Below are positions 17,484 through 30,203 of a DNA stretch of 64,000 nt, piece by piece. The stretch lies in assembly GCF_008831075.1 (NCBI RefSeq), contig NZ_WBJX01000006.1, positions 124,001 to 188,000 on the forward strand. Reading direction: 5' to 3'. A program made the translations under genes and the position numbers. The DNA comes from Pseudoclavibacter terrae. GTDB lineage: Bacteria; Actinomycetota; Actinomycetes; Actinomycetales; Microbacteriaceae. Each line of letters starts with the position of its first letter. The stretch's first letter is position 1. The notes below the pieces were generated by a model. It was given only the letters and a program-made list of their open reading frames with translations. It made no database searches and was not told the origin of the DNA.

Positions 17484-18389
17484 ATGACGGAACGGCTCCT
17501 CGGGAGCGTGCTCATCGTCAGCGCCGACGCGCGTGCGCTCGGCGGCCGAGACCGCCTGCGGGCTCTCGAGGTGCTGTCGGAGGGCGATCGTCATCGGCTG
17601 CGCGCCATGTCCGAGGTGCGGGCGGACGACCGCGCGGACGCGTTCCTCACTGGCCGCTTGCTGGTGCAGCTCGGCCTCGAGCGCCTCTCGGCTGACCACT
17701 TCGCCTCAGACCTCCTCGCCACAGACCTCGAGATGGGTTCCACGCTTCCGGATGGCGTGCACGCCATCCGGAAGCGCGGAACCCACCTCGAAAGCGGGGA
17801 GCGCGGGCTCGCGCCGGTCGCGGCGCTCGAGGTGGTCTGCTCGAACTGCGGCTCGACGACGCACGGCAAGCCGAGCATGCCGGGTCTGCCGGTGCTCATC
17901 AGCCTCGCCTATGCGGGGACGACGGTCTTCGTGGCGTTGGCCAGCGCCGACGACGTCAGCGCCCTCGGGATCGACGTCGAGGAGCTGCGGATCGACGAGG
18001 ACTCCGCCTCTGCGCGGCCCGCCGGAGCCCTCCCGATCTCAGGCGCAGGCCCAGGCGCAGACCCAGACCGAGACGCAGCGCCCCGTGCGCCATCGGGGGA
18101 TGCGGTCGACCCCGCCCTCGACCTCGAGTGGTGGACCGCCGTCGAGGCGGTTCTCAAGGCGGACGGCCGCGGGCTGCGAGTCGATTCGAGCTTGGTGCGC
18201 TTCGAGCCAGGCGAGGGGCGCGCCGACGGGGACGAGCATGCTCGCGTCGCTGGCGAGGAGGCGAGCTACCGCATCCACCGCGCCGTCGCGGAGCGCTTCC
18301 TCGTGGCCGTGGCCACAAGGAAGCCGGACCGGGAAACGAGCCTGGTCAGTGAACCCGCTAACGAAGGAGCCGAGTCACCTTCGCTCTGA
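17484..18389 (+). CDS. Sfp-type 4'-phosphopantetheinyl transferase (301 aa)
   Basis: Transfers the phosphopantetheine arm of CoA to the carrier-domain serine of NRPS/PKS enzymes. Family marks are CSNCGSTTHGKP (119-130), LISLAYAG (138-145), the magnesium-binding GIDVEE (D164, E166), and WWTAVEAVLKADGRGL (216-231). The lysine that usually precedes the Glu in W-x-x-K-E-A is replaced (AVEAVLKA). A low-complexity Ala/Gly/Pro insertion sits between about 178 and 210. ATG 17484 is used; a GTG at 17478 is the alternative. Its 3' end overlaps the convergent aminopeptidase by 32 bp. The nearest carrier domain is that of the Pls-like NRPS 1.3 kb beyond, the probable substrate. Confidence 0.85.
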   Translation: MTERLLGSVLIVSADARALGGRDRLRALEVLSEGDRHRLRAMSEVRADDRADAFLTGRLLVQLGLERLSADHFASDLLATDLEMGSTLPDGVHAIRKRGTHLESGERGLAPVAALEVVCSNCGSTTHGKPSMPGLPVLISLAYAGTTVFVALASADDVSALGIDVEELRIDEDSASARPAGALPISGAGPGADPDRDAAPRAPSGDAVDPALDLEWWTAVEAVLKADGRGLRVDSSLVRFEPGEGRADGDEHARVAGEEASYRIHRAVAERFLVAVATRKPDRETSLVSEPANEGAESPSL

Positions 18390-19716
18390 CCGCCGAGGGC
18401 AGATCTGGGAGGGCGAGCTGGTAGAGCCAGGCGTCGAAGAGCTCCTGGAGCGGGGCGTCCGGCACGACCGCTGCGGCGTGCTCGATGAACTCCGCGGTCG
18501 AGGCCACGGAGAATCGCTTCTCCACGGTCCAGCTCGTGAGGATCTCGAAGAACGCTGAGTCGCCGACGGTCAGGCGCAGCGCGTGGAGGGTGAGTGCGCC
18601 GCGCTTGTAGACGCGGTCGTCGAACATGTCGGCGGCACCCGGGTCACCGAGCAGCAGGTCCTGCGGCAGCGCAGACAGCGAGCGCCAGTAGTGCCTGGCC
18701 AGCTGGTCAGCGCTCTCGGCACCGCTCGCCTCCGCCCAGATCCACTCGGCGTAGCAGGCGAAGCCCTCGTTCAGCCAGATGTGCTGCCAGCCGCCCACTC
18801 CGACGCTGTTGCCGAACCACTGGTGCGCGAGCTCGTGGGCCACGAGGCGCTCCTGCCCTCTGGCGCCGTCGATCTGGTTCGCGCCGAAGATCGCCATGCC
18901 CTGGGCTTCGAGGGGGATCTCGAGGTCGTCGGCCGTGACGATGACGGCGTAGGAGTCGAAGGGGTACGGGCCGAAGGTCAGCTCGAAGGTCTCCATCATG
19001 CGAGACACGTCGGCGAGGTCGGTTCCCACGCGGCGGGCGAGGGCGGTCGGGTAGTGCAGGTGCCCGTCGACTCCCGCGAGCTGCACGTCTTCGCGTCGGT
19101 AGCGTCCGATCTGCAGGGTGACGAGGTAGCTGGCGGTGGGTGCGCCCTCCTCGTACACCCAGGTCGTGAGGCCTCCGGCTGAGCGCCTCGAGCGCAGCGA
19201 TCCGGTTGCGACGACGTCGTAGTTGCTGTCGACGGAGACCTGGATGCGGTAGCTGGCCTTGTCTGCGGGGTGGTCGTTGCAGGGGAACCAGGTCGGGGCG
19301 CCGGTGGGTTGCGAGGCGACGATGATGCCGTCCTCGAGCTCTTCCCAGCCGATGGTTCCCCAGCGGGAGCGGCGGGGGCGAGGGGCGCCCTCGTAGACGA
19401 CCTCGAGCGTGATGGCGGCTCCGGCCTCGACTGGCTTCGACAGCGTGATCTTCAGCTTGCGGTCGCTCTGCTTGAAGCGCGCCTGCTTGTCGCCGCGCAC
19501 GGCGACCTTGCTGACGCGAAGGCCGACGAGGTCGAGGGCGAAGGCGGTGAGCGGGACGGTGGCGCGGAGGCTCAGCGTCGCCGTGCCGGAGAGTCGGTTG
19601 TTCTGCATCCGGTACTTGAGGGCGAGGTCGTAGTGCTCGACGCGGATGCTCACGTCGCCGCTCTGCGGCGTGTAGGGGTTGCCGGGCAGGGGCTCGCGCG
19701 CGGCGGCGCGGTTCAT
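18358..19716 (-). CDS. M1-family zinc aminopeptidase, coupled to the Pls-like synthetase (452 aa)
   Basis: A compact M1 metallopeptidase with the N-terminal beta domain (about 20-205) and the catalytic thermolysin-like domain. The zinc site HELAH (294-298) with E317 (LNEGF) is intact, and the substrate-binding motif reads LEAQGMAIFG in place of GAMEN, as in other short actinobacterial M1 enzymes. It lacks the long C-terminal helical domain of PepN-type enzymes. The ATG at 19716 overlaps the synthetase TGA by four bases, so it is translated with the synthetase. In Streptomyces epsilon-polylysine producers an aminopeptidase-type enzyme degrades the polymer, so the same role is a reasonable inference here. 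Confidence 0.85.
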   Translation of the reverse strand: MNRAAAREPLPGNPYTPQSGDVSIRVEHYDLALKYRMQNNRLSGTATLSLRATVPLTAFALDLVGLRVSKVAVRGDKQARFKQSDRKLKITLSKPVEAGAAITLEVVYEGAPRPRRSRWGTIGWEELEDGIIVASQPTGAPTWFPCNDHPADKASYRIQVSVDSNYDVVATGSLRSRRSAGGLTTWVYEEGAPTASYLVTLQIGRYRREDVQLAGVDGHLHYPTALARRVGTDLADVSRMMETFELTFGPYPFDSYAVIVTADDLEIPLEAQGMAIFGANQIDGARGQERLVAHELAHQWFGNSVGVGGWQHIWLNEGFACYAEWIWAEASGAESADQLARHYWRSLSALPQDLLLGDPGAADMFDDRVYKRGALTLHALRLTVGDSAFFEILTSWTVEKRFSVASTAEFIEHAAAVVPDAPLQELFDAWLYQLALPDLPSAVRAKVTRLLR

Positions 19717-22700
19717 GACACCTTCGACTGGTAGGCGCGGAGCTTGAGCGCGCGCCACGGGCCGATGGGGTTGCCGCTCCAGCGGCTGCCGACGGGGACC
19801 GACTCGCCGCGCATGACGAGGGAGGCTGGTCCCACGGTGGCGTGGGCGCCGATCGTGGCGGCGGGCAGGATCACGCTGTGCGGTCCGAGCGTTGCGCCTG
19901 CTTCGAGGGTGACGGTGTCCATGCTCATTATTCGATCATGGAACAGGTGGGTCTGGACGACGCATCCCCGGTTGACGGTGGCTCCGTCGCCGAGAGTGAC
20001 CAGATCTGCCTCCGGGAGCCAGTAGGAGTCGCACCAGACGCCCTTGCCGATCTTCGCGCCGAGCGAGCGGAGCCAGAGCGCGAGGGCGGGCGTTCCGGCG
20101 GCGCCGCGTGCGAACCAGGGGGCTGCGACCATCTCCACGAACGTGTCTGCGACCTCGGTGCGCCACACGAAGCTCGACCAGAGGGGCTGCTCGGAGACGC
20201 GGATGCGTCCGACGATGAGCCACTTGGCGAGGGTCGAGATGATGGCGGATGCTGCTGCCGCGGCGAGGAGGACGAAGCCGGACAGGACGATGCTCCAGGC
20301 GACGCCGACGGCGGTCTCGATGGCGGCGAGCGCGAGGAGCACGCCGAGGCCGAGCCCGCAGGTGACGATGACGGGGACGATGCGGCACAGCTCCCAGAGC
20401 GCGCGGGCGATGCGGAGCGCCCGGGGCGGGTTGTAGGTGCGGGACTCGTCGCCGTCGACCGTCACGCGGCGGAGGCGCACGGGGGGCGAGCCGAGCCAGG
20501 AGGAGCCGGGTTTCGCCTTCGCGGGTGCGGCGGAGAGCACGGCGACGAGGCCGTCGCGGGGCACCGAGTGGCCCGCCGCTGCCATGCCGGAGTTTCCGAG
20601 GAAGGCTCGCGCGCCGATGCGGGCCCGCTCGATGCGCATCCACCCGTTGTGCAGTTCGTAGGAGGCGACCATGGTGTCGTCGGCGAGGAACGCGCCGTCG
20701 TCGATCTGCGTCATCGAGGGGAGGAGCAGGACGGTCGAGGCTTCGACGTCGCGGCCGACCTTGGCGCCGAGCATCCGCAGCCAGACGGGCGTGAAGAGGC
20801 TCGCGTAGAACGGGAAGAGCATGGTGCGGGCGGCGTCGAGGAGGCGTTCGATGCACCAGGCCTGCCAGGCGACGCGCGAGCGAACGGGGTGCGTGCCCTG
20901 CGTGAGGCCGATCGAGAGGAGACGCACGAAGGCCACGACGAGCCCCGCGAAGACGACTCCCGCCGCGATGACTGCGGGGACGAGCCACGCGAACGCGGCG
21001 AGGGCGGCGTCGCCCAGTGACGCTGCACCGCGCATCCCGATCGCGACGACGACTCCGCCGACCGCGAAGGAGAAGAGCGGCAGCAGCGCGAGGGCGGCGG
21101 AGGCGACGGCGTAGACGAGGGCCCACCCGAAGGGCTGCGGCGGGCGTTCGGCGGGCCAGTCGTTCGCGCGCACCTTGCCGACCCGGACGGCGGGGGAGCC
21201 GGCCCAGCTCTTGCCGGAGCGGACGCGGCCGAAGACCGCGGAGCCGGGTGCGACCTCGGCTCCCTGGCCGATCTTCGTGCCGGGAGCGAGGGTGCTTCGG
21301 GCGCCGACCGTTGCGCCGGCGCCGATGCGGATGCCGCCGATGCGCACGAGCTCGCCGTCGATCCAGTAGCCGGTCAGGTCGACCTCCGGCTCGATGGCCG
21401 CCCCGTCGCCCAGCTGCAGCATGCCTGTGACGGGCGGCAGCGAGTGCAGGTCGACGTTGTTGCCGACCTTCGCGCCGAGTGCCCGCGCGTAGTAGACGAC
21501 CCAGGGTGCACCCGCGAGCCCGACGGCGTCGATCTGCGTGGCGACCTGCTCGGCGAGCCACAGGCGCATGTGGGTCGACCCGCCGCGTCGGTAGTCGCCA
21601 GGCTTCAGGCGGAACAGCAGGATGCGCGCGGCGGCAACGGAGATCGCCATCTTCCCGAACGGGGTCACGAACACCACGAGCATGACGACGATGAGCCAGA
21701 GCGGAGCGTCCGGCAGCACCTCGAACCCTGGCAGGAGCTGCAGCAGGGCGCTCGCGGTGAGCAGGTAGGTGATCCAGCGGGCGCCGGCGAGGATGTGCAG
21801 GGGGAGGCCTGCGACGATCTGCAGGATGCGTGCCGACAGCGGAGTCGGCCCGGGTGTGCTGAAGGTCGTGGGCAGCTCGTCCTCGTCGTCGAGCGCTTCG
21901 CGGATCGACTCGGTCATCGCGCCGAGGCGGGGATGGTCGTAGACGTCGGCGACCGTGAACTCGGGGACGCGGGCGCGCACCCTCGTCACGAGCTGGGCGG
22001 CCGAGAGCGAGCCGCCGCCGAGGTCGAAGAAGTCTGCGTCCTCGCTGGCGACGGGCAGTCCGAGCACGGCCTGCCACTGCTCGGCGAGCCAGGCGCTGTG
22101 GGCCTCGAGGTCGCCGGACACCTCGTCTGCACCGGGAAGCGGCCAGGGCAGCGCGTTCTTGTCGACCTTGCCGGACGTGCGGGTCGGCAGGGAGTCGACC
22201 TCGGCGATCAGCGGCACGAGGGCCTTCGGCAGCTGCTCGCCGAGTTCGGCGCGCGCGAGCTGCCGCTCGTAGTCGGGGCCCGTCACGACGTAGCCGACGA
22301 GGATGGAGGCCCCTGCCGAGGTCTTGCGGACGGCGACGGCGGATCCGGTGACGCCGGTGACGGCTTGCAGCGCCGCTTCGACTTCGCCGAGCTCGATCCG
22401 GCGGCCGCCGATCTTGACCTGGTCGTCGGCCCGTCCGAGGAACACGAGGCCCTCGGCTTCGTATTTGACGAGGTCGCCCGAGCGGTAGGCGCGCTCCCAG
22501 CCGAGGCTCTCCATGGGCGCGTACTTCTCGGCGTCCTTGGCCGGGTCGAGGTACCGGGCGAGGCCGACGCCGCCGATGATGAGCTCGCCGGATTCGCCCT
22601 CTGTGACGCGCTTGCCCTCGGCGTCGACGACGGCGAGCTCCCACCCGTCGAGCGGGAGGCCGATGCGGATGGGGGCGTTGCCGTCGAGGAGCGCGGCGCA

Positions 22701-23651
22701 CGCGACGACGGTGGCCTCGGTCGGGCCGTACGTGTTCCAGACCTCGCGGCCGTCGCCGACGAGGCGCTGCGTGAGCTCGAGCGGGCAGGCCTCGCCGCCG
22801 AAGATGAGGAGCCTGACCTGCTCGATGGTCTCGCTCGGCCAGAGCGCGGCCAGTGTCGGGACGGTCGAGACGACCGAGATCTGGTGGCGCAGGAGCCACG
22901 GCCCGAGGTCTTCGCCGGAGCGAACCAGCGACCGGGGGGCTGGCACGAGGCACGCGCCGTAGCGCCAGGCGAGCCACATCTCTTCGCACGAGGCGTCGAA
23001 GGCGACCGACAGTCCGGCGAGGACGCGGTCGCCTGGACCGATGGGCTCGGCCTGCAGGAAGAGCTTCGCCTCGGCGTCGACGAAGGCGGCGGCGGAGCGG
23101 TGGGAGACGGCGACGCCCTTCGGCACCCCTGTCGAACCGGAGGTGAAGATGACCCAGGTGTCGTCGTCCAGGCTCGGGCCCTCGAGCTCGTCGAGGCTGC
23201 TGCTCTCCGGATGCGGGGCGCCGGCCTCGAAGAGGTCGACCGGAACCCCTGCTGGCTGCTCGCCGTCGGCCGCGAGCACGAACACGCCGTCACCCTCGAT
23301 GGTGCCTCGCACCTTGGCTTCCCCGAAGACGAGCAAGGCGCGCTCGTCCGGGTCGTCGACGTCGACGGGCACGTAGGCGGCCCCGGCGGCGATGATGGAG
23401 AGGATCGCGACGTACAGCTCACGGGTGCCGGACACGAGTCGCACGCCGACCTTGTCGCCGCGACGCACTCCCGCATCCTGCAGCACCTTTGCCGTCTGGG
23501 CGACGTAGGCCGTCAGGTCCAGGTAGCTCAGGGGAGCGACGCCGTCATCGATCGCGATGGCGTCGGGATGCGCGGTCGCTGTCGCCGAGAGCACGTCGAT
23601 GAGGGTGCGGGGCGTGGGCGCGGCCGCGGATCGGTCCAGAGGGGAGAGCAC
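19713..23651 (-). CDS. Pls/PosA-type single-module NRPS, poly-amino-acid synthetase-like (1312 aa)
   Basis: Domain order matches the epsilon-polylysine synthetase Pls, whose usual length is about 1320 residues. Adenylation domain: A3 IFTSGSTGVPKG (168-179), A4 from D219, A5 NTYGPTEA (306-313), A7 YRSGDLV, A8 QVKIGGRRIELGEVE, A10 GKVDK. Carrier domain: phosphopantetheine Ser548 in DFFDLGGGSL. Then six hydrophobic segments (about 617-641, 650-670, 845-872, 885-910, 1091-1112, 1116-1140) with three soluble hexapeptide-repeat-like domains (about 690-835, 925-1065, 1160-1300). There is no classical condensation or thioesterase domain. Specificity residues aligned by hand to GrsA: D219 A220 E223 S262 I283 G285 T307 V315 V316 K495, close to the lysine code DAESIGSVCK (recalled). 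The start is GTG without a clear ribosome-binding site. Confidence 0.88.
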   Translation of the reverse strand: MLSPLDRSAAAPTPRTLIDVLSATATAHPDAIAIDDGVAPLSYLDLTAYVAQTAKVLQDAGVRRGDKVGVRLVSGTRELYVAILSIIAAGAAYVPVDVDDPDERALLVFGEAKVRGTIEGDGVFVLAADGEQPAGVPVDLFEAGAPHPESSSLDELEGPSLDDDTWVIFTSGSTGVPKGVAVSHRSAAAFVDAEAKLFLQAEPIGPGDRVLAGLSVAFDASCEEMWLAWRYGACLVPAPRSLVRSGEDLGPWLLRHQISVVSTVPTLAALWPSETIEQVRLLIFGGEACPLELTQRLVGDGREVWNTYGPTEATVVACAALLDGNAPIRIGLPLDGWELAVVDAEGKRVTEGESGELIIGGVGLARYLDPAKDAEKYAPMESLGWERAYRSGDLVKYEAEGLVFLGRADDQVKIGGRRIELGEVEAALQAVTGVTGSAVAVRKTSAGASILVGYVVTGPDYERQLARAELGEQLPKALVPLIAEVDSLPTRTSGKVDKNALPWPLPGADEVSGDLEAHSAWLAEQWQAVLGLPVASEDADFFDLGGGSLSAAQLVTRVRARVPEFTVADVYDHPRLGAMTESIREALDDEDELPTTFSTPGPTPLSARILQIVAGLPLHILAGARWITYLLTASALLQLLPGFEVLPDAPLWLIVVMLVVFVTPFGKMAISVAAARILLFRLKPGDYRRGGSTHMRLWLAEQVATQIDAVGLAGAPWVVYYARALGAKVGNNVDLHSLPPVTGMLQLGDGAAIEPEVDLTGYWIDGELVRIGGIRIGAGATVGARSTLAPGTKIGQGAEVAPGSAVFGRVRSGKSWAGSPAVRVGKVRANDWPAERPPQPFGWALVYAVASAALALLPLFSFAVGGVVVAIGMRGAASLGDAALAAFAWLVPAVIAAGVVFAGLVVAFVRLLSIGLTQGTHPVRSRVAWQAWCIERLLDAARTMLFPFYASLFTPVWLRMLGAKVGRDVEASTVLLLPSMTQIDDGAFLADDTMVASYELHNGWMRIERARIGARAFLGNSGMAAAGHSVPRDGLVAVLSAAPAKAKPGSSWLGSPPVRLRRVTVDGDESRTYNPPRALRIARALWELCRIVPVIVTCGLGLGVLLALAAIETAVGVAWSIVLSGFVLLAAAAASAIISTLAKWLIVGRIRVSEQPLWSSFVWRTEVADTFVEMVAAPWFARGAAGTPALALWLRSLGAKIGKGVWCDSYWLPEADLVTLGDGATVNRGCVVQTHLFHDRIMSMDTVTLEAGATLGPHSVILPAATIGAHATVGPASLVMRGESVPVGSRWSGNPIGPWRALKLRAYQSKVS

Positions 23652-23755
23652 GTGGCAACGCTACCGGGGAAAGGTAACGCGGCGGTTGCCGAGCGTCCCG
23701 GGCTGCCCCGCGCCTCGGATCCGGCGACTCCATTGTCGAACCTGAAAATCTCCCG

Positions 23756-23774
23756 TAAGGTAACCCTTGCCTTA
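23756..23774. promoter_or_regulatory. DtxR/IdeR-like iron box in the pls-htaA divergent region
   Basis: TAAGGTAACCCTTGCCTTA matches the DtxR consensus TWAGGTTAGSCTAACCTWA (recalled) at about 16 of 19 positions. A partly overlapping second half-site, ACCTAA, follows at 23784-23789. It lies about 105 bp from the synthetase start (minus) and 120 bp from the htaA start (plus). Iron repression of the heme genes is expected from corynebacterial precedent; an effect on the synthetase is only inferred from position. Confidence 0.65.
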
Positions 23775-23893
23775 CTTAGCGTCACCTAACCAGCTCCACC
23801 GGGTGGCGTCCCCACGGTGAGGCTTTCGGACACGGCACTCGCCGCGCATCTGCGCGCGTGTCGGGGAGCCGTGGCTTCTACTCAGGAGAACTC

Positions 23894-25288
23894 ATGACAG
23901 CAGTGCAAGATCAGACGGCTCGTCGGTCGTCTGTGCTGGCCCGCGGCGGAACGACACTCGCCGCAGCCGGCCTCATCGCGGCGGGCCTCGGCCTCGGTGC
24001 GGCACCGGCCTCGGCAGCCGAATCAACCGTCGAGAACGTCTCGTTCTCATGGCAGGTCAACACGGAGTCCGGCGCAGGTGCGTACTTCGGTGGCTGCAAC
24101 TACCTCGTCGCGGGTCAGGTCGGCAACGCCGGCTCCTCCCACGTCTGGGCGGAATCGGAAGGGTTCTACAAGACAGCTGACGGCAACGTCACCGTCACCA
24201 AGCCCGACGCGGCTGGCGAGCAGGCTCAGCCGACCTGGGCCACGAAGTGCCAGACCCCGGCAGGCGGCAACGTGTCGGCTCCGGCGGGCACGTCCTCCGC
24301 GAACCAGGTCAACTTCGCTGGCGGAACGGGCACGGTCGACCCGGACACGGAGTCCGGCACCATCGGCTGGGACGGGTCGTTCACGTTCGTCTTCTACGGC
24401 GGCATGACGTACTGGTCCGTCTCCGACATCCAGCTCGAGGTCGTCAACGGCGAGGGCACGCTGACCGGCACCGCTTCCGGCTACGGCGCGTCCATGGATG
24501 ACGCCACGATCTGGGAGCCGCTGCCCTCGCGCACCATCGACCTCGCGACGTTCAGCGGCGTCGACCTGACGGCCACCGGTGCGGTCGTCGACGTCGACTA
24601 CGCCGGCGTCGAGGTCGACACGAGCGGCACGCCCCAGTCGCGTACCGGAGCCAACTGGGGTTCGTTCCCGCAGTCGTTCGTCGAGTACAACGAGCTGACC
24701 GGCCAATCCTCCTACTGGTACTCCTCCGGCGGCGCGGCTGACGCGCGCAAGACGGCGAAGCCCTTCTCGGTGGCCTACACGCTCCCCGAGGTCGAGGTTC
24801 CCGGCACGCCAGAGGGCAACGTCGATGTCGTCATCCCTGAAGCGGAGATCGTCCCGCCCGTCGACCCAGAGACCGGGTCGTTCTCGTGGGCGTGGGCCGA
24901 CGCGAACGGCGCCGACCTCGGCACCGCCGTGCAGACGGGGGACAACTTCGTTGCCACGGGCTCGATCAGCAACGTCGCCGTGACCGACACCCGCGCGGGC
25001 GGCACGGCCGCGTACGGCTGGACCGTCTCCGGACAGTCCACCGACTTCAGCAACGGCACGGACTCGTTCGGAGCAGAGGCCCTCGGCTGGTCGCCGAAGG
25101 TCCTCACGGGCAACCCGGACAACGTCACCGCCGGCACGGCCGCGACGGGTCTCGGCTCGGCGCAGAAGCTCGCCCAGTCGAACGCTGCCGCAAGCGCAAC
25201 GCTGGGTGCTGACCTCACCCTGTCGGTTCCCACCACCACCAAGCAGGGCGCGTACTCCGCGACCCTCACCATCTCGGCGATCTCCTAG
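23894..25288 (+). CDS. htaA: secreted HtaA-domain heme-binding protein (464 aa)
   Basis: The signal peptide ends near PASAAES (41-43). One HtaA-type domain follows (about 46-296), opening FSWQVNTESGAGAYFGGCNYL. Y64 sits where HtaA domains place the heme-ligating Tyr; the position of the partner His reads Y168 (FVFYGG). C68 and C119 could form a disulfide. A second, unassigned beta-rich segment fills residues 305-464. No cell-wall sorting signal, lipobox or C-terminal membrane helix is present, so it is probably released or held by partners. A good AGGAGAA ribosome-binding site precedes the ATG. It is the first gene of the heme locus, downstream of the iron box, and a terminator-like hairpin follows. 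It would capture heme and pass it to HmuT. Confidence 0.82.
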   Translation: MTAVQDQTARRSSVLARGGTTLAAAGLIAAGLGLGAAPASAAESTVENVSFSWQVNTESGAGAYFGGCNYLVAGQVGNAGSSHVWAESEGFYKTADGNVTVTKPDAAGEQAQPTWATKCQTPAGGNVSAPAGTSSANQVNFAGGTGTVDPDTESGTIGWDGSFTFVFYGGMTYWSVSDIQLEVVNGEGTLTGTASGYGASMDDATIWEPLPSRTIDLATFSGVDLTATGAVVDVDYAGVEVDTSGTPQSRTGANWGSFPQSFVEYNELTGQSSYWYSSGGAADARKTAKPFSVAYTLPEVEVPGTPEGNVDVVIPEAEIVPPVDPETGSFSWAWADANGADLGTAVQTGDNFVATGSISNVAVTDTRAGGTAAYGWTVSGQSTDFSNGTDSFGAEALGWSPKVLTGNPDNVTAGTAATGLGSAQKLAQSNAAASATLGADLTLSVPTTTKQGAYSATLTISAIS

Positions 25289-25296
25289 GCGCCGAG

Positions 25297-25331
25297 GAGT
25301 GCGCGGGAGCCCACGGGGCTTCCGCGCACTC
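25297..25331 (+). terminator. 16-bp hairpin after the first htaA gene
   Basis: GAGTGCGCGGGAGCCC (25297-25312) pairs with 25316-25331 around the loop ACG, with one G-T wobble. It may terminate most transcripts so that the secreted HtaA protein is made in excess over the downstream transporter genes. Confidence 0.7.
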
Positions 25332-25399
25332 GCACCTCGCCCCCCACCACCTCTCGCTCCCACGCGGCCTCACCGCGAGAGCCCCACGTTAGGGACCAC

Positions 25400-26836
25400 A
25401 TGGCTCTCCCCATCAGCCTCCGTCTCCGCATCCGCGCCACAACCTCCGTCGTTGTCGCGGCCTCGCTGATGGCGCTGCTGTCGTCGCTCGCCCCGACGGC
25501 GGCGCACGCCGACACCACGCAGCCGCCCGCGTGGAGCATCGACACGGTCGACGGTGATCGCGGATCGGGCCGCGCAAACTTCTCCTACGAGGTCGATCCC
25601 GGCGACGTCATCACCGACTCCATCAGCGTCACCAACACCGGCCAGGGTGCGCTGACCCTGACGATCTACGCCGCGGACGCCTTCACGACGGCGACCGGCG
25701 CGGTGGACATCCTCGAGAGCGGCGAAGCCTCTGTGGATGCGGGACTCTGGGTCGCTCCGGGCGCCACGTCCATCTCGCTCGAGCCGGGCGCGAGCGCTGA
25801 CGTCCCCTTCACGCTCAGCGTGCCGGCCGACGCGACCCCCGGTGACCACTCCGCGGCGATCGTCGCCTCGCTGCTCCCCGCCGACTCGGACGACCAGGTG
25901 AAGGTCGAGCGTCGACTCGGACTCCGCATCGACATGCGGGTCAGCGGTGCGCTCGCGCCCACCGCCGAGATTCGGAGCCTCGACACGGGCTGGTCGGCGG
26001 CGGGCTTCAACCCCTTCGGCGGAGGCACCACCACCGTCAGCTACGAGCTCGTGAACACCGGCAATGTTCGGCTCGCCTCGATGGAGGACCTGCGCCTCAG
26101 CGGCATCGGGGGCTCATCGCCGGTCGTGCTCACCGGTGCGGACGTGCCAGAACTCCTGCCAGGATCATCGGTCACCGTCACGCGCGCACTCAGCACCGGG
26201 GCCGTTGGCCCGCTCAGTGGGACGCTCACGCTCTACCTGCAGCCGATGGATGCGTTCACCGACGTGCCGGTGGCCGTCACCGCCGAGCTGTCGGCCTTCG
26301 CACTGCCCTGGTCGCTCATCGTGCTTCTCGTCGTCCTGCTCCTCGCCGTCGCGGCCGTCATCTTCTGGGTCTGGCGGCGCCGACGCCTCGACCTCCTGAT
26401 GGCGGGCTACGGCGACGACGCAGGACTCGGGGCCGAGAAGCTCGCGCCCCCGCGCGTGGGAGGCGCGGCAGGTGCCGCACTCGCGCTCGTCGCCGGCGTC
26501 GTGCTCGCGCTCGGCGTCAGCCTCTCGGGTCCGACGCCGGCGGTCGCCGAGCCCGCTCCGACCTCGCCATCCGGAGTCGTCGAGGTGACCATCCCAGCGC
26601 CGACGGCAGTGCCGACTCCCACGGCAGGCCCTGGCACGCCGCAGACCGCGGCCCCGGCACCGAGCACGGGAACGGGCGGCGGTTCCAACGCTGGCAACGG
26701 TTCCGCGAACGCCGGCGGCGGATCCGGCCTCCTCTCCACCGGCAACGAGCCGCTCGCCTTCGCGCTCGGCGTCGGCGCGCTGGCGCTCCTCGGCGGCGCC
26801 GTGCTGCTCCTTCGTCGCCGGGGACGCACCGGCTGA
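25400..26836 (+). CDS. DUF916-like surface protein with three membrane segments and a sortase-like tail (478 aa)
   Basis: Signal peptide (to about residue 38, AHADT). A beta-rich exported region (45-290) contains FSYEVDPGDVITDSISVTNTGQGALTLTIYAADAF, like the WxL-interacting/DUF916 proteins that bind the cell wall. Then a membrane helix (LPWSLIVLLVVLLLAVAAVIFWVW) with an RRRR stop, a short cytoplasmic loop, a second helix (AAGAALALVAGVVLALGVSL), a 90-residue Pro/Thr/Gly-rich external linker, and finally LLSTG-NE, a third helix and RRRGR. That ending resembles an LPXTG sorting signal with the Pro replaced by Leu. Located between htaA and hmuT, it may be a wall-spanning scaffold in heme relay. 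The exact function is unknown. Confidence 0.65.
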   Translation: MALPISLRLRIRATTSVVVAASLMALLSSLAPTAAHADTTQPPAWSIDTVDGDRGSGRANFSYEVDPGDVITDSISVTNTGQGALTLTIYAADAFTTATGAVDILESGEASVDAGLWVAPGATSISLEPGASADVPFTLSVPADATPGDHSAAIVASLLPADSDDQVKVERRLGLRIDMRVSGALAPTAEIRSLDTGWSAAGFNPFGGGTTTVSYELVNTGNVRLASMEDLRLSGIGGSSPVVLTGADVPELLPGSSVTVTRALSTGAVGPLSGTLTLYLQPMDAFTDVPVAVTAELSAFALPWSLIVLLVVLLLAVAAVIFWVWRRRRLDLLMAGYGDDAGLGAEKLAPPRVGGAAGAALALVAGVVLALGVSLSGPTPAVAEPAPTSPSGVVEVTIPAPTAVPTPTAGPGTPQTAAPAPSTGTGGGSNAGNGSANAGGGSGLLSTGNEPLAFALGVGALALLGGAVLLLRRRGRTG

Positions 26837-26893
26837 CCAGACCACCCGACCTGCCGCGCATCCCCGACCCGACCAGACACGACCGAGGAACCC

Positions 26894-28150
26894 ATGCCCC
26901 TGCCACGCACGCTCCGCCGCTTCCGCCGTTCGACGATCCGTCGCGCCGGCTGGGCGGCACTCGCGGTGGTGGTCGTCTCGGTGCTGTGGGCCAACGGGTT
27001 CCACAACATCGGCACGGCCAATGGCGCGGGCAACGAGCGATGCGTCTCGCAACCCGTGCAGACGGACCCGGTCGCGCCGGTTCTGCCGTCGATCACGTCG
27101 GCTGAGCTCCCTGATCCGCGGAGCATCGCGGGGCCGACAACGGCGTACACGCAGACGGCGGCCATCAACCCCATCACCGACGCGGCGACCGCGGTGCAAC
27201 AGCTGCCAGCCACTCTCACGAGCTCCGATGGCGCGGAGACGACCGTGACCGACACGACGCGCATCCTCGCCATCAACCAGAACGGCGGGCTCGCGGCCGC
27301 CGTCATCGGGCTCGGCTTCGGCTGCAACCTCATCGGGCGCGACACCGCCACCGACATCACGAAGCTCATGCCGGGCAACGAGCAGCTGCCGCTCGTCACG
27401 CAGAACGGGCACGAGCTCAACGCGGAGTCGATCCTCCAGCTCGCGCCGACCGTCGTCGTCACCGATGCCTCGATCGGCCCCTACGACGTGCAGCTGCAGC
27501 TGCGCCAGGCCGGCATCCCCGTGGTCATGGTGCCCATCGCCTACGAGGACGGCATCGAGGGTGTCTCCCCGCAGATCCAGTTCGTGGCGGATGCGCTCGG
27601 CGTCCCCACCCTGGGGGAGAAGCTCTCGCAGCGAACACAGGCCGAGATCGGCACGACCATCCAGCAGATCGGCACGATGGCCCCCACCGACCCGGAGAAG
27701 AAGCCTCGCGTCGTGTTCCTGTACCTGCGCGGCAGCGTCTACTACTGGTTCGGCGCAGGATCAGGCGCCGACTCGATCATCCAGAGCATCGGCGCTCGCG
27801 ACGTCGCCACCGAGGTCGGCTTCGCGGGCATGTCGCCCACCAACGCAGAAGCGCTTGTCCGCGCCGCCCCCGACGTGATCATCGTCATGACGATGGGACT
27901 CGCCTCGGTCGGCGGCATCGACGAGGCCGTCCAGCTGCCCGGCATCGGGCAGACCCCGGCCGGCGCGAACAAGCGCATCGTCGACATGAGCGACTACGAG
28001 GTCATGAGCTTCGGACCCCGGTCGGCGTCGGTGCTCGCGGCCCTTGGCACCGCGATCTACGCGCCAGAGCTCGCCTACGTCCCGGAGCGCGCCCCCGAGG
28101 CAGACCCCGCCGACGACAGAACCGACAGCACAGACGAGAGCGGCGCATGA
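26894..28150 (+). CDS. hmuT: heme ABC transporter substrate-binding protein HmuT-like (418 aa)
   Basis: A cluster A-II (FhuD/BtuF-like) binding protein. The binding-protein fold begins about residue 120 (TRILAINQNGGLAAAVIGLGFG) and includes VVVTDASIGPYDVQLQLRQAGIPVVMVP and the GSGADSIIQSIGARDVATEVGF region. In corynebacterial HmuT the heme is held by a His and a Tyr; H173 (TQNGHELN) and Y277 (FLYLRG) are the best candidates here. Instead of a lipobox there is a single hydrophobic anchor (18-33) and a long Pro/Thr-rich tether (50-120). GAGGAA precedes the ATG, and the stop overlaps hmuU by four bases. It would receive heme from HtaA proteins at the membrane. Confidence 0.82.
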   Translation: MPLPRTLRRFRRSTIRRAGWAALAVVVVSVLWANGFHNIGTANGAGNERCVSQPVQTDPVAPVLPSITSAELPDPRSIAGPTTAYTQTAAINPITDAATAVQQLPATLTSSDGAETTVTDTTRILAINQNGGLAAAVIGLGFGCNLIGRDTATDITKLMPGNEQLPLVTQNGHELNAESILQLAPTVVVTDASIGPYDVQLQLRQAGIPVVMVPIAYEDGIEGVSPQIQFVADALGVPTLGEKLSQRTQAEIGTTIQQIGTMAPTDPEKKPRVVFLYLRGSVYYWFGAGSGADSIIQSIGARDVATEVGFAGMSPTNAEALVRAAPDVIIVMTMGLASVGGIDEAVQLPGIGQTPAGANKRIVDMSDYEVMSFGPRSASVLAALGTAIYAPELAYVPERAPEADPADDRTDSTDESGA

Positions 28151-29337
28151 GCAGAGACGTGAACGTGTCAACGGCAGCACCGCAGAGCGCCGCCCCGAGG
28201 CCAGAAACGGGGCAGCCGAAACGTTGGGACCTCGTCGACCGTGTCGAGGAGCGCGCCCGCCCCGAGCCGGTCGCCCAGCCGACGGATGCGCCACCCCGCT
28301 CCAAGAAGGCGCGCGCCTCGCTGCTCGCGGCAGTCCTCACGACCCTCCTCATCGCCGGCTGCCTCGTCTCCGCGATGATCGGCCAGCTCTACATCCCGCC
28401 CCTCGAGGTGCTCGGCTTCCTGCTCAACCAGCTCGGCATCACCTGGCTGCCGGGCCCGAGCCACGAGTTCGGGGCGGCCGCGCTCGCGGAGGTCCGCTTC
28501 CCGCGTCTGGTGCTCACCGTCCTCGTCGGGGCGGCGCTGGCGGTCGCGGGCGCGCTCATGCAGGGCATCTTCGGCAACCCGCTCGCCGAGCCCGGCTCCG
28601 TCGGCGTCTCCGCGGGCGCGGCCGTCGGCGCGAGCTTCTCGATCCTCTTCAGCCTCACCTTCCTCGGCCCGTTCACGACGCCCACCTTCGCGTTCGTCGC
28701 CGGCCTCATCACGACGTTCGTCGTGTACTCGCTGTCCCGCTCCGGCCGACGCACCGACGTCATCACGCTCATCCTGACCGGCGTCGCCGTCAACGCCGTC
28801 TGCGGTGCGCTCATCGCCTTCATAACCTTCAGCGCGCCGACGCAGGCGCGCGAGCAGATCGTCTTCTGGCAGATGGGCAGCATGAACGGCTCCCGCTGGG
28901 AGCAGGTCTGGCTCGTCGCCCCGCTCATCGTCGTGGGGTGCGTCCTCGCCATCGGGATCGGAAGGCAGCTCGACCTGCTGTCGCTCGGCGAGAAGGCGGC
29001 CCGCCACGTCGGCGTGAACGTCGAGCGCGTACGTCTGATCGTCATGATCTACGTGGCCCTGCTCGTCTCCGCAGCGGTCGCCTTCGCCGGCATCATCGCG
29101 TTCGTCGGCCTCGTCGTGCCGCACGTCATCCGCATGATCATCGGGCCAGCGCACCGCCCGCTCCTGCTCTGCTCGGTGCTCGGCGGAGCCCTGCTGCTCA
29201 CGATCGCCGACCTCGGCGCCCGCACCCTCGTCGAGTACGCCGACCTGCCCATCGGCATGCTGACCTCCCTCATCGGCGGGCCGTTCTTCTTCTTCCTGAT
29301 CCGGCGCAGCCGGGCGAAGGGCGGCGCGTGGTCATGA
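28147..29337 (+). CDS. hmuU: heme ABC transporter permease HmuU, FecCD family (396 aa)
   Basis: About ten membrane helices of the BtuC/FecCD type, with the family marks LPRLVLTVLVGAALAVAGALMQGIFGNPLAEPGSVGVSAGA (written here FPRLV), a WQMGS motif and the coupling-helix region AARHVGVN followed by VAFAGIIAFVGLVVPHVIR. The first 60 residues are a hydrophilic cytoplasmic extension, longer than usual. Both ends overlap neighbours by four bases (hmuT upstream, hmuV downstream). Confidence 0.92.
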   Translation: MSRDVNVSTAAPQSAAPRPETGQPKRWDLVDRVEERARPEPVAQPTDAPPRSKKARASLLAAVLTTLLIAGCLVSAMIGQLYIPPLEVLGFLLNQLGITWLPGPSHEFGAAALAEVRFPRLVLTVLVGAALAVAGALMQGIFGNPLAEPGSVGVSAGAAVGASFSILFSLTFLGPFTTPTFAFVAGLITTFVVYSLSRSGRRTDVITLILTGVAVNAVCGALIAFITFSAPTQAREQIVFWQMGSMNGSRWEQVWLVAPLIVVGCVLAIGIGRQLDLLSLGEKAARHVGVNVERVRLIVMIYVALLVSAAVAFAGIIAFVGLVVPHVIRMIIGPAHRPLLLCSVLGGALLLTIADLGARTLVEYADLPIGMLTSLIGGPFFFFLIRRSRAKGGAWS

Positions 29338-30203
29338 TCGGCTCCATCCTCAGGACCCCCATCCGCAAGCCGCGCGCGACCACGCCGGGCGAGGTGGTCC
29401 TGTCCGTCCGCGACGTGAGCGTCGACTTCGGCGAGCGCACCGTGCTCGAGGGCCTCGACCTCGACATCCGCGCCGGCGAGGTGCTCGCCCTGGTCGGGCC
29501 CAACGGGGCCGGCAAGTCGACGCTCATCAACGTCATCACCGCCGACGTGGATGCGCGCAGCGGCACCGTCGAGATCGACGGCCTCCCGAGCTACGCCTGG
29601 ACCAACACCGAGCTCGCGATGCGCCGAGCCGTGCTCCTGCAGCAGGTCGACATCGCGTTCCCGTTCTCGGTCGAGGAGGTCGTCGACATGGGCCGCGCGC
29701 CCTGGCAGCAGGTGAGCGAGCGCGAGCGCGACGACCTCATCACGGCCGGCGCGATGCGACGCACGGACATCGACCGCTTCGCCGACCGCCACTACCCGTC
29801 ACTCTCCGGCGGCGAACGGGCCAGGGCCGCGCTCGCCCGCGTCCTCGCGCAGACCGCCTCGGTCATGCTGCTCGACGAGCCGACCGCGGCGATGGACATC
29901 AAGCATCAGGAGATGGTGCTCGACCTCGTGCGCAGCTACGCGAGCACCGGATGCGCGGTCGTCATCATCGTGCACAACCTCGACCTCGCGGCCGCCTACG
30001 CCGACCGCATCGCGCTCCTTAGCCGCGGCCGCATCGTCGCCGACGGGCCGCCAGCAGAGGTGCTCACGGCTGAGCGCATCTCGCAGGTCTACGAGCATCC
30101 AGTGCACATCCTCGCGGACCCCTTCACCGGGGCACCGATCGTCGTGCCCAAACGCGCATCCACCGGTTCCTCGACCCCCGCCGAAGAAGGGCACCACGCA
30201 TGA
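29334..30203 (+). CDS. hmuV: heme ABC transporter ATP-binding protein HmuV (289 aa)
   Basis: An ABC ATPase with Walker A GPNGAGKST, Q-loop LLQQVDIAFPFSVEEVV, signature LSGGERARAALARVL, Walker B MLLDEPTAAMD and switch IIVHNLDLAAAYADRIALL. The GMRAPW-like stretch VVDMGRAPW is typical of HmuV/BtuD-type ATPases. The ATG at 29334 overlaps the hmuU stop; the open frame that continues upstream is antisense-free hmuU coding sequence read in another frame. It powers heme import by HmuTU. Confidence 0.93.
   Translation: MIGSILRTPIRKPRATTPGEVVLSVRDVSVDFGERTVLEGLDLDIRAGEVLALVGPNGAGKSTLINVITADVDARSGTVEIDGLPSYAWTNTELAMRRAVLLQQVDIAFPFSVEEVVDMGRAPWQQVSERERDDLITAGAMRRTDIDRFADRHYPSLSGGERARAALARVLAQTASVMLLDEPTAAMDIKHQEMVLDLVRSYASTGCAVVIIVHNLDLAAAYADRIALLSRGRIVADGPPAEVLTAERISQVYEHPVHILADPFTGAPIVVPKRASTGSSTPAEEGHHA

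Follow-up and report, generated by a model that had tools for sequence, protein, structure and literature searches.

Gene Content and Architecture of the Synthetase

The window analysed here, a 64,000-nucleotide (nt) stretch of the Pseudoclavibacter terrae genome (contig NZ_WBJX01000006.1, positions 124,001 to 188,000, in an assembly of 11 contigs), carries a predicted epsilon-poly-L-lysine (epsilon-PL) system, i.e., the synthetase gene pls on the minus strand (19713-23651), a PldII-like M1 aminopeptidase gene on the same strand (18358-19716), a convergent phosphopantetheinyl transferase (PPTase)-like gene of the Sfp type on the plus strand (17484-18389), and a predicted promoter element of degenerate PHO-box type in front of pls on the minus strand (23657-23691). 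The pls open reading frame (ORF) encodes 1312 amino acids, with an adenylation (A) domain at residues ~1-505, a carrier domain with Ser548, and a C-terminal TIGR02353 domain at residues 610-1296. The protein had been proposed to be a Pls/PosA-like synthetase in an earlier reading from the sequence only (hereafter the sequence-only reading), and this assignment is borne out by the TIGR02353 match in NCBIfam (715.7 bits vs. a cut-off of 423.1) and by the A domain, whose best solved relative is the A domain of Streptomyces albulus Pls (7WEW, E=1.2e-189), with 313 of 477 aligned residues identical (65.6%). The closest match to the synthetase in one scan of named genomes is from Pseudoclavibacter sp. 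AY1H1 (93% identity), in line with the Microbacteriaceae origin that the sequence-only reading had thought probable.

The domain order read from the sequence, an A domain, a carrier, and membrane segments with three tandem domains, likewise holds in NCBIfam, Pfam, hydropathy and AlphaFold2 (AF2) analyses. Pfam matches are AMP-binding at residues 23-366, PP-binding at 521-581, which includes Ser548, and Hexapep at 773-806; no classical condensation or thioesterase domain was found by the NCBIfam and Pfam scans. The C-terminal half has three hydrophobic regions (~639-677, ~839-919 and ~1084-1148), and a weaker hydrophobic segment lies in the A domain (78-99). The AF2 model places long helices at the three C-terminal hydrophobic regions and also at 605-637, which together with the hydropathy profile is consistent with six membrane segments, in three pairs, that would separate three tandem domains.

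Alignment showed that the ten-residue specificity code DAESIGTVVK, which had been read by hand, is correct, and that S. albulus Pls (7WEW) has the same ten residues. The lysine contacts of S. albulus Pls are D213, E217, S256, T301 and K495 (PMC11253843, in part; here and below these words mark a source of which a portion was available), and the aligned residues of the window synthetase are the same. Of the 142 sequences aligned (the window, 7WEW and 140 loci), 140 carry this code, the exceptions being L058, with one change, and the paralog L074; all 40 further loci from the class carry it too. The sequence-only reading had noted two differences from the lysine code of bacitracin; compared with S. 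albulus Pls, the code is more than similar, as all ten residues agree. Because of this identity, L-lysine is the expected monomer of the window synthetase as judged from its pocket residues.

Distribution and Partner Genes

Of the 299 genomes sampled from the bacterial family, 118 have a TIGR02353 match (41 of 85 genera), the genome that holds the window being one of them, and of 394 genomes of the class, 105 have one (35 of 138 genera). The family sample comprised 59 loci, in which every one of the 41 matching genera is represented and the promoter training loci are included, and the class sample comprised 40 loci chosen from the matches in the 105 genomes. The duplicates L111, L122 and L128 and the paralog L074 were dropped before the training count of 84 loci; the three duplicates are still counted in the M1 and htaA linkage, the fixed-unit promoter scan, the PPTase linkage, and the named-locus and control-region counts below. 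Such polymers had been called little described in this lineage, a statement that does not survive: Pls homologs in Microbacterium and other coryneforms are listed in PMC8117764, together with a pls-peptidase operon, and NCBIfam names the Pls/PosA family. The lineage is not new ground for the enzyme, the kind of which is already described. The control genome of Corynebacterium glutamicum also has a TIGR02353 match above the cut-off; this species was used as a pls expression host (PMC8117764).

The M1 ORF as listed spans 18358-19758, and an internal ATG at 19716 yields the four-base ATGA overlap with the pls stop that the sequence-only reading had described. The product matches Peptidase_M1 (E=1.8e-24) and keeps the HELAHQW and LEAQ motifs. 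In 139 of 140 loci, all but the poly-diaminobutyrate-like paralog L074, pls has an M1 peptidase gene downstream on its own strand, and a gap of 0.6-2.2 kb parts the two genes in five loci (L136, L138, L145, L154 and L173). The same gene is downstream in 38 of the 40 class loci, the remaining two being L251 and L278. Since the pair recurs in loci across the class, the arrangement is not due to chance, and the conserved gene order supports the earlier view of the M1 peptidase as a coupled partner of pls. The pldII gene of S. albulus is described as being in translational coupling with pls and as needed for self-protection (PMC9223678, in part); by analogy, the window peptidase may act on polylysine. 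In L251, from a genome of 2.3 Mb, neither a promoter element nor an M1 match was found in the stretch fetched.

The PPTase-like ORF ends 1324 bases from the pls stop, in accord with the distance of 1.3 kb noted earlier. It contains GIDVE and WTAVEAVLK, which we take to be the two PPTase motifs. Of 91 Microbacteriaceae loci (the three duplicates and L074 counted in), 76 have a convergent PPTase-like ORF no more than 4 kb downstream, and 13 of 49 loci outside this family have one within 4 kb of pls; both motifs are present in 61 of 95 such linked ORFs overall. The PPTase-like gene and its conserved order are upheld. One result weighs against the full assignment as an Sfp-type transferase: the Pfam ACPS match reaches 19.5 bits, below the curated cut-off of 25, with no NCBIfam match. 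No mention of the linkage between pls and a PPTase gene was found in the available portions of the pls literature, reviews included.

The C-terminal Domain

An AF2 model of residues 601-1312, built on 22 sequences, reached a pLDDT (predicted local distance difference test) of 80 and a pTM (predicted template modelling score) of 0.85. Its best Foldseek matches in the PDB are left-handed beta-helix acyltransferases, namely serine acetyltransferase (E 1.8e-4), followed by GlmU, AntD and LpxD. Set against this fold assignment are the low TM-scores of the Foldseek matches, as only part of the model aligns. For PosA, three packed left-handed beta-helices over six helices have been predicted (PMC10522769, in part), and the modelled C-terminal fold of the window synthetase agrees with that published model, so that no new claim is made for it.

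Conservation was examined across 181 sequences, including the distant L074 and L278, and 41 C-terminal positions are conserved in at least 99% of them. His1235, in the third unit, is the only histidine among the 41, and other conserved polar positions include, e.g., Arg696, Asp991, Glu1166, Glu1214 and Gln1233. From this conservation pattern, we propose that His1235 may be the catalytic residue; Gln1233, Glu1214 and Glu1166 are close to it in the sequence.

The Predicted pls Promoter Element

The element in the window consists of the units GGCAACC and CGTTACC, 11 nt apart, followed by a predicted -10 hexamer TAGCGT (23658-23663), from which, given its position, transcription would begin at the GTG start of pls and leave no leader. 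Many genera have two GTTCACC-like units 11 nt apart upstream of pls and then a -10 hexamer at a fixed spacing. Among 140 sequences (139 loci and the window), 56 have a fixed-unit GTTCACC pair scoring at least 11 of 14 upstream of pls. The controls gave such a pair in 12 of 700 cases for dinucleotide shuffles, in 13 of 705 for random pieces and in 14 of 140 for the reverse strand of the same stretches. Period 11 yields the highest count, 56 sequences, and each of the remaining periods between 8 and 14 yields 5-19. Of the 85 sequences that score at least 10, 34 have a complete -10 hexamer at the fixed distance, and the corresponding controls gave 0 of 76 (shuffles), 4 of 106 (random pieces) and 1 of 38 (reverse strand).

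The training set of a 35-column matrix comprised 84 Microbacteriaceae loci, and sites came from 51 of them (leave-one-out 51/84). The window and its three nearest relatives, L039, L041 and L159, were kept out of this set, which did include L040 and L042, of the window's listed genus. The held-out loci scored 17.0 (window), 18.1 (L039), 17.8 (L159) and 16.3 (L041), against a 99% null of 8.5, and the score of the window was reached by 3 of 1370 random pieces. The matrix is passed by 40 of the 59 sampled family loci (29 of 41 genera), by 26 of 49 held-out loci from other bacterial families, and by 43 of 80 named loci.

The PHO box of Streptomyces coelicolor is GTTCACC in 11-nt repeats (PMC4415409 and PMC7244524, both in part). 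The best PstS-family match was taken in each of 30 family genomes, and the upstream regions scored at least 11 in 23 of 30 cases, vs. 0 of 30 coding controls; 21 scored at least 12, and the two at exactly 11 look like chance. Some of the seven failing cases may be fused or paralogous proteins. In the genome that holds the window, both tandem pstS-like genes (G000:C1:789591-790820) are preceded by 11-nt repeats, one by a repeat pair and the other by an apparent four-unit array; both PstS matches are slightly below the curated cut-off (203.2 and 187.8 vs. 205). A genome-wide search for a GTTCACC-pair regulon, with 3 mismatches allowed, was abandoned as too unspecific: it gave 159 forward and 152 reverse sites, and the reversed pattern still gave 68 and 58. 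Among the five best sites is one at pstS, with 1 mismatch.

Several results weigh against a phosphate-type promoter as a general feature of pls. Only 10 of the 40 class loci pass the matrix, with 0 of 14 in the Streptomycetaceae-like family f26 and 10 of 26 elsewhere, and the pls promoter of S. albulus scores -6.9. Only 1 of 14 named Microbacterium loci passes, and Nocardia (6 of 15) is close to the threshold. Control regions also exceed the nominal 1%: the matrix is passed by 6 of 94 regions ahead of the PPTase-like ORF, by 11 of 139 taken from the opposite strand and by 4 of 139 lying further upstream; these rates are still far below that of pls. At the element, the units of Pseudoclavibacter agree with GTTCACC at only 8 of 14 positions, and for the window and L159 the fixed-unit scan chose other places.

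The drift of the units, to GGCAACC and CGTTACC in the window and to GTTTGCC and GGTAACC in Nocardia, leaves some room for a different reader of the element. MtrA and GlnR are regulators of the same class as the phosphate regulator. One of these, or another of their class, might bind the 11-nt repeats in its place, and the 7+4 repeat architecture is indeed not unique to phosphate regulators (PMC4832192, in part). This alternative is regarded as rather unlikely: the consensus learned from the Microbacteriaceae pls promoters, GTTCACC..CcGtTCACC, is the published PHO-box motif (PMC4415409 and PMC7244524, both in part), and it matches the pstS promoters of the same bacterial family.

For control by phosphate, the balance of evidence leads us to lean, if only slightly, towards polylysine synthesis being a phosphate-starvation response in many non-Streptomyces actinobacteria, including most pls-carrying Microbacteriaceae genera, in which pls would be a direct target of PhoP/RegX3 through the predicted PHO box at the -35 place. 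As judged from the promoter sequences, phosphate control has about even odds in Pseudoclavibacter and may be granted a higher probability for Microbacteriaceae as a whole. The promoter finding may be new; no report of phosphate control of pls was found in the available portions of the literature on poly-L-lysine, including PMC9195005.

The DtxR-like Box and the Likely Heme-Uptake Genes

A DtxR/IdeR-like box, TAAGGTAACCCTTGCCTTA, lies at 23756-23774 on the plus strand, ahead of a divergent gene for an HtaA-domain protein (23858-25288, plus strand), which is a neighbour outside the polylysine system and the first gene of a likely heme-uptake set. The region 23756-30203 is likely a cluster for the uptake of heme or iron, as the box and the HtaA gene are followed there by genes for a WxL-interacting-type protein, a periplasmic binding protein (Peripla_BP_2), a FecCD permease and an ABC ATPase.

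The box has no second match in 64 kb, where none is expected by chance, and it sits in the intergenic region shared with pls; iron raises epsilon-PL in Kitasatospora kifunense, according to the available part of a review. Both points would suit a pls gene that is regulated by iron together with the divergent heme-uptake genes through this box, as the sequence-only reading had hinted. Against this stands the wider comparison, in which 3 of 140 loci, each from the genus of the window, have htaA linked to pls, and L040 and L042, which are listed as the same genus, lack it; a DtxR-like box within 400 bases of pls was found in only 2 of 140 other loci, L039 and L159. In L041, a relative from the genus of the window, an ORF parts the two promoters, such that the box (3 mismatches) is found with htaA, 1308 bases from pls, and the repeat element remains with pls. 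Because the box stays with htaA in L041 and is rare near pls, it most likely serves htaA rather than pls. Iron control of pls was thus rejected on the 3/140 linkage and on the L041 arrangement; it is deemed improbable, and the hinted link is dropped. By its motif, as recognised by eye, the intervening ORF of L041 reads like a Doc/Fic toxin.

Proposed Mechanism and Relation to Known Systems

Taken as a whole, the locus is, with high probability, best explained as a canonical epsilon-poly-L-lysine system with self-protection by the M1 peptidase and, in most of the Microbacteriaceae genera sampled, a pls promoter of the PHO-box type. In the proposed mechanism, the PPTase-like protein would load phosphopantetheine on Ser548, and the A domain, to judge from its identical pocket, would activate L-lysine and charge the carrier. 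The membrane-embedded C-terminal domain, with its three modelled left-handed beta-helix units, would then join the carboxyl of the bound lysine to the next epsilon-amine, as is known for Pls, and the translationally coupled M1 peptidase would degrade the polymer as self-protection, as reported for PldII. In most of the genera sampled, pls is most likely transcribed from an activator-type promoter of PHO-box architecture, and because of this architecture the system is probably induced by phosphate limitation in those genera, with about even odds in Pseudoclavibacter. One point tempers the assignment, i.e., the polylysine product and the activity of the enzyme of this strain are predictions from sequence.

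The S. albulus Pls/PldII system is alike in its domain order, its lysine code, the A-domain identity given above, and its translationally coupled aminopeptidase (PMC9223678, in part). It differs in its promoter, the pls promoter fragment printed in PMC8117764 being without the repeat element. This comparison covers the synthetase, the peptidase coupling and the promoter; the window locus also has its PPTase-like gene linked to pls. By its description, the pls-peptidase operon of Corynebacterium variabile, with a confirmed product, is alike as well (PMC8117764). No polymer was produced by C. variabile itself, for which the study put forward an unknown trigger signal; coryneform pls also works in a Streptomyces host (PMC8117764). 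PosA of Acinetobacter baumannii shares the NCBIfam family name and the predicted three beta-helices over six helices, and is different in its ornithine-specific pocket, DMEHNGTVSK, and its single-gene operon (PMC10522769, in part).

The antimicrobial polymer epsilon-polylysine is a food preservative, commercially produced with S. albulus (PMC8117764). The enzyme pair is already known, and what is possibly new is the phosphate-type pls promoter as a testable regulatory hypothesis. If it is true, phosphate starvation could be the missing trigger for pls genes that are silent in ordinary culture, phosphate control would separate these genes from the differently controlled Streptomyces ones, and the polymer would be made in answer to a lack of phosphate and not as a constitutive weapon. 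The promoter shared by many genera offers a cheap and direct test of such a trigger in non-filamentous bacteria.

Other Monomers Considered and Divergent Synthetases

The Pls/PosA family makes several polymers of diamino acids (PMC10522769, in part), and the code DFECLSVVTK was read in a paralog that belongs to the same bacterial family and lies beside a diaminobutyrate transaminase gene, yet polymerisation of ornithine, diaminobutyrate, diaminopropionate or beta-lysine in place of L-lysine by the window synthetase is very improbable and was rejected on the pocket residues, given the code identical to that of the lysine-activating S. albulus Pls, with Ala at position 2 vs. Met in PosA and Phe in the PDAP (poly-diaminopropionate) synthetase, the lack of a monomer-making enzyme among the window neighbours searched, and a pls-peptidase context that is that of lysine enzymes.

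The paralog, at L074 (6245-13232, plus strand) in a Planctomonas-like genome, is a second Pls/PosA-family synthetase with 29% identity to that of the window. It is preceded by the diaminobutyrate transaminase and an M28 peptidase, and is likely a poly-diaminobutyrate or poly-diaminopropionate system with a different peptidase partner. Two synthetases were found in each of the 3 genomes of the Planctomonas-like genus with a listed TIGR02353 match. The class locus L278, with no M1 match in the stretch fetched, has the lysine code yet only 37% identity to the window synthetase, and its C-terminal motifs resemble those of the diaminobutyrate-type paralog L074.

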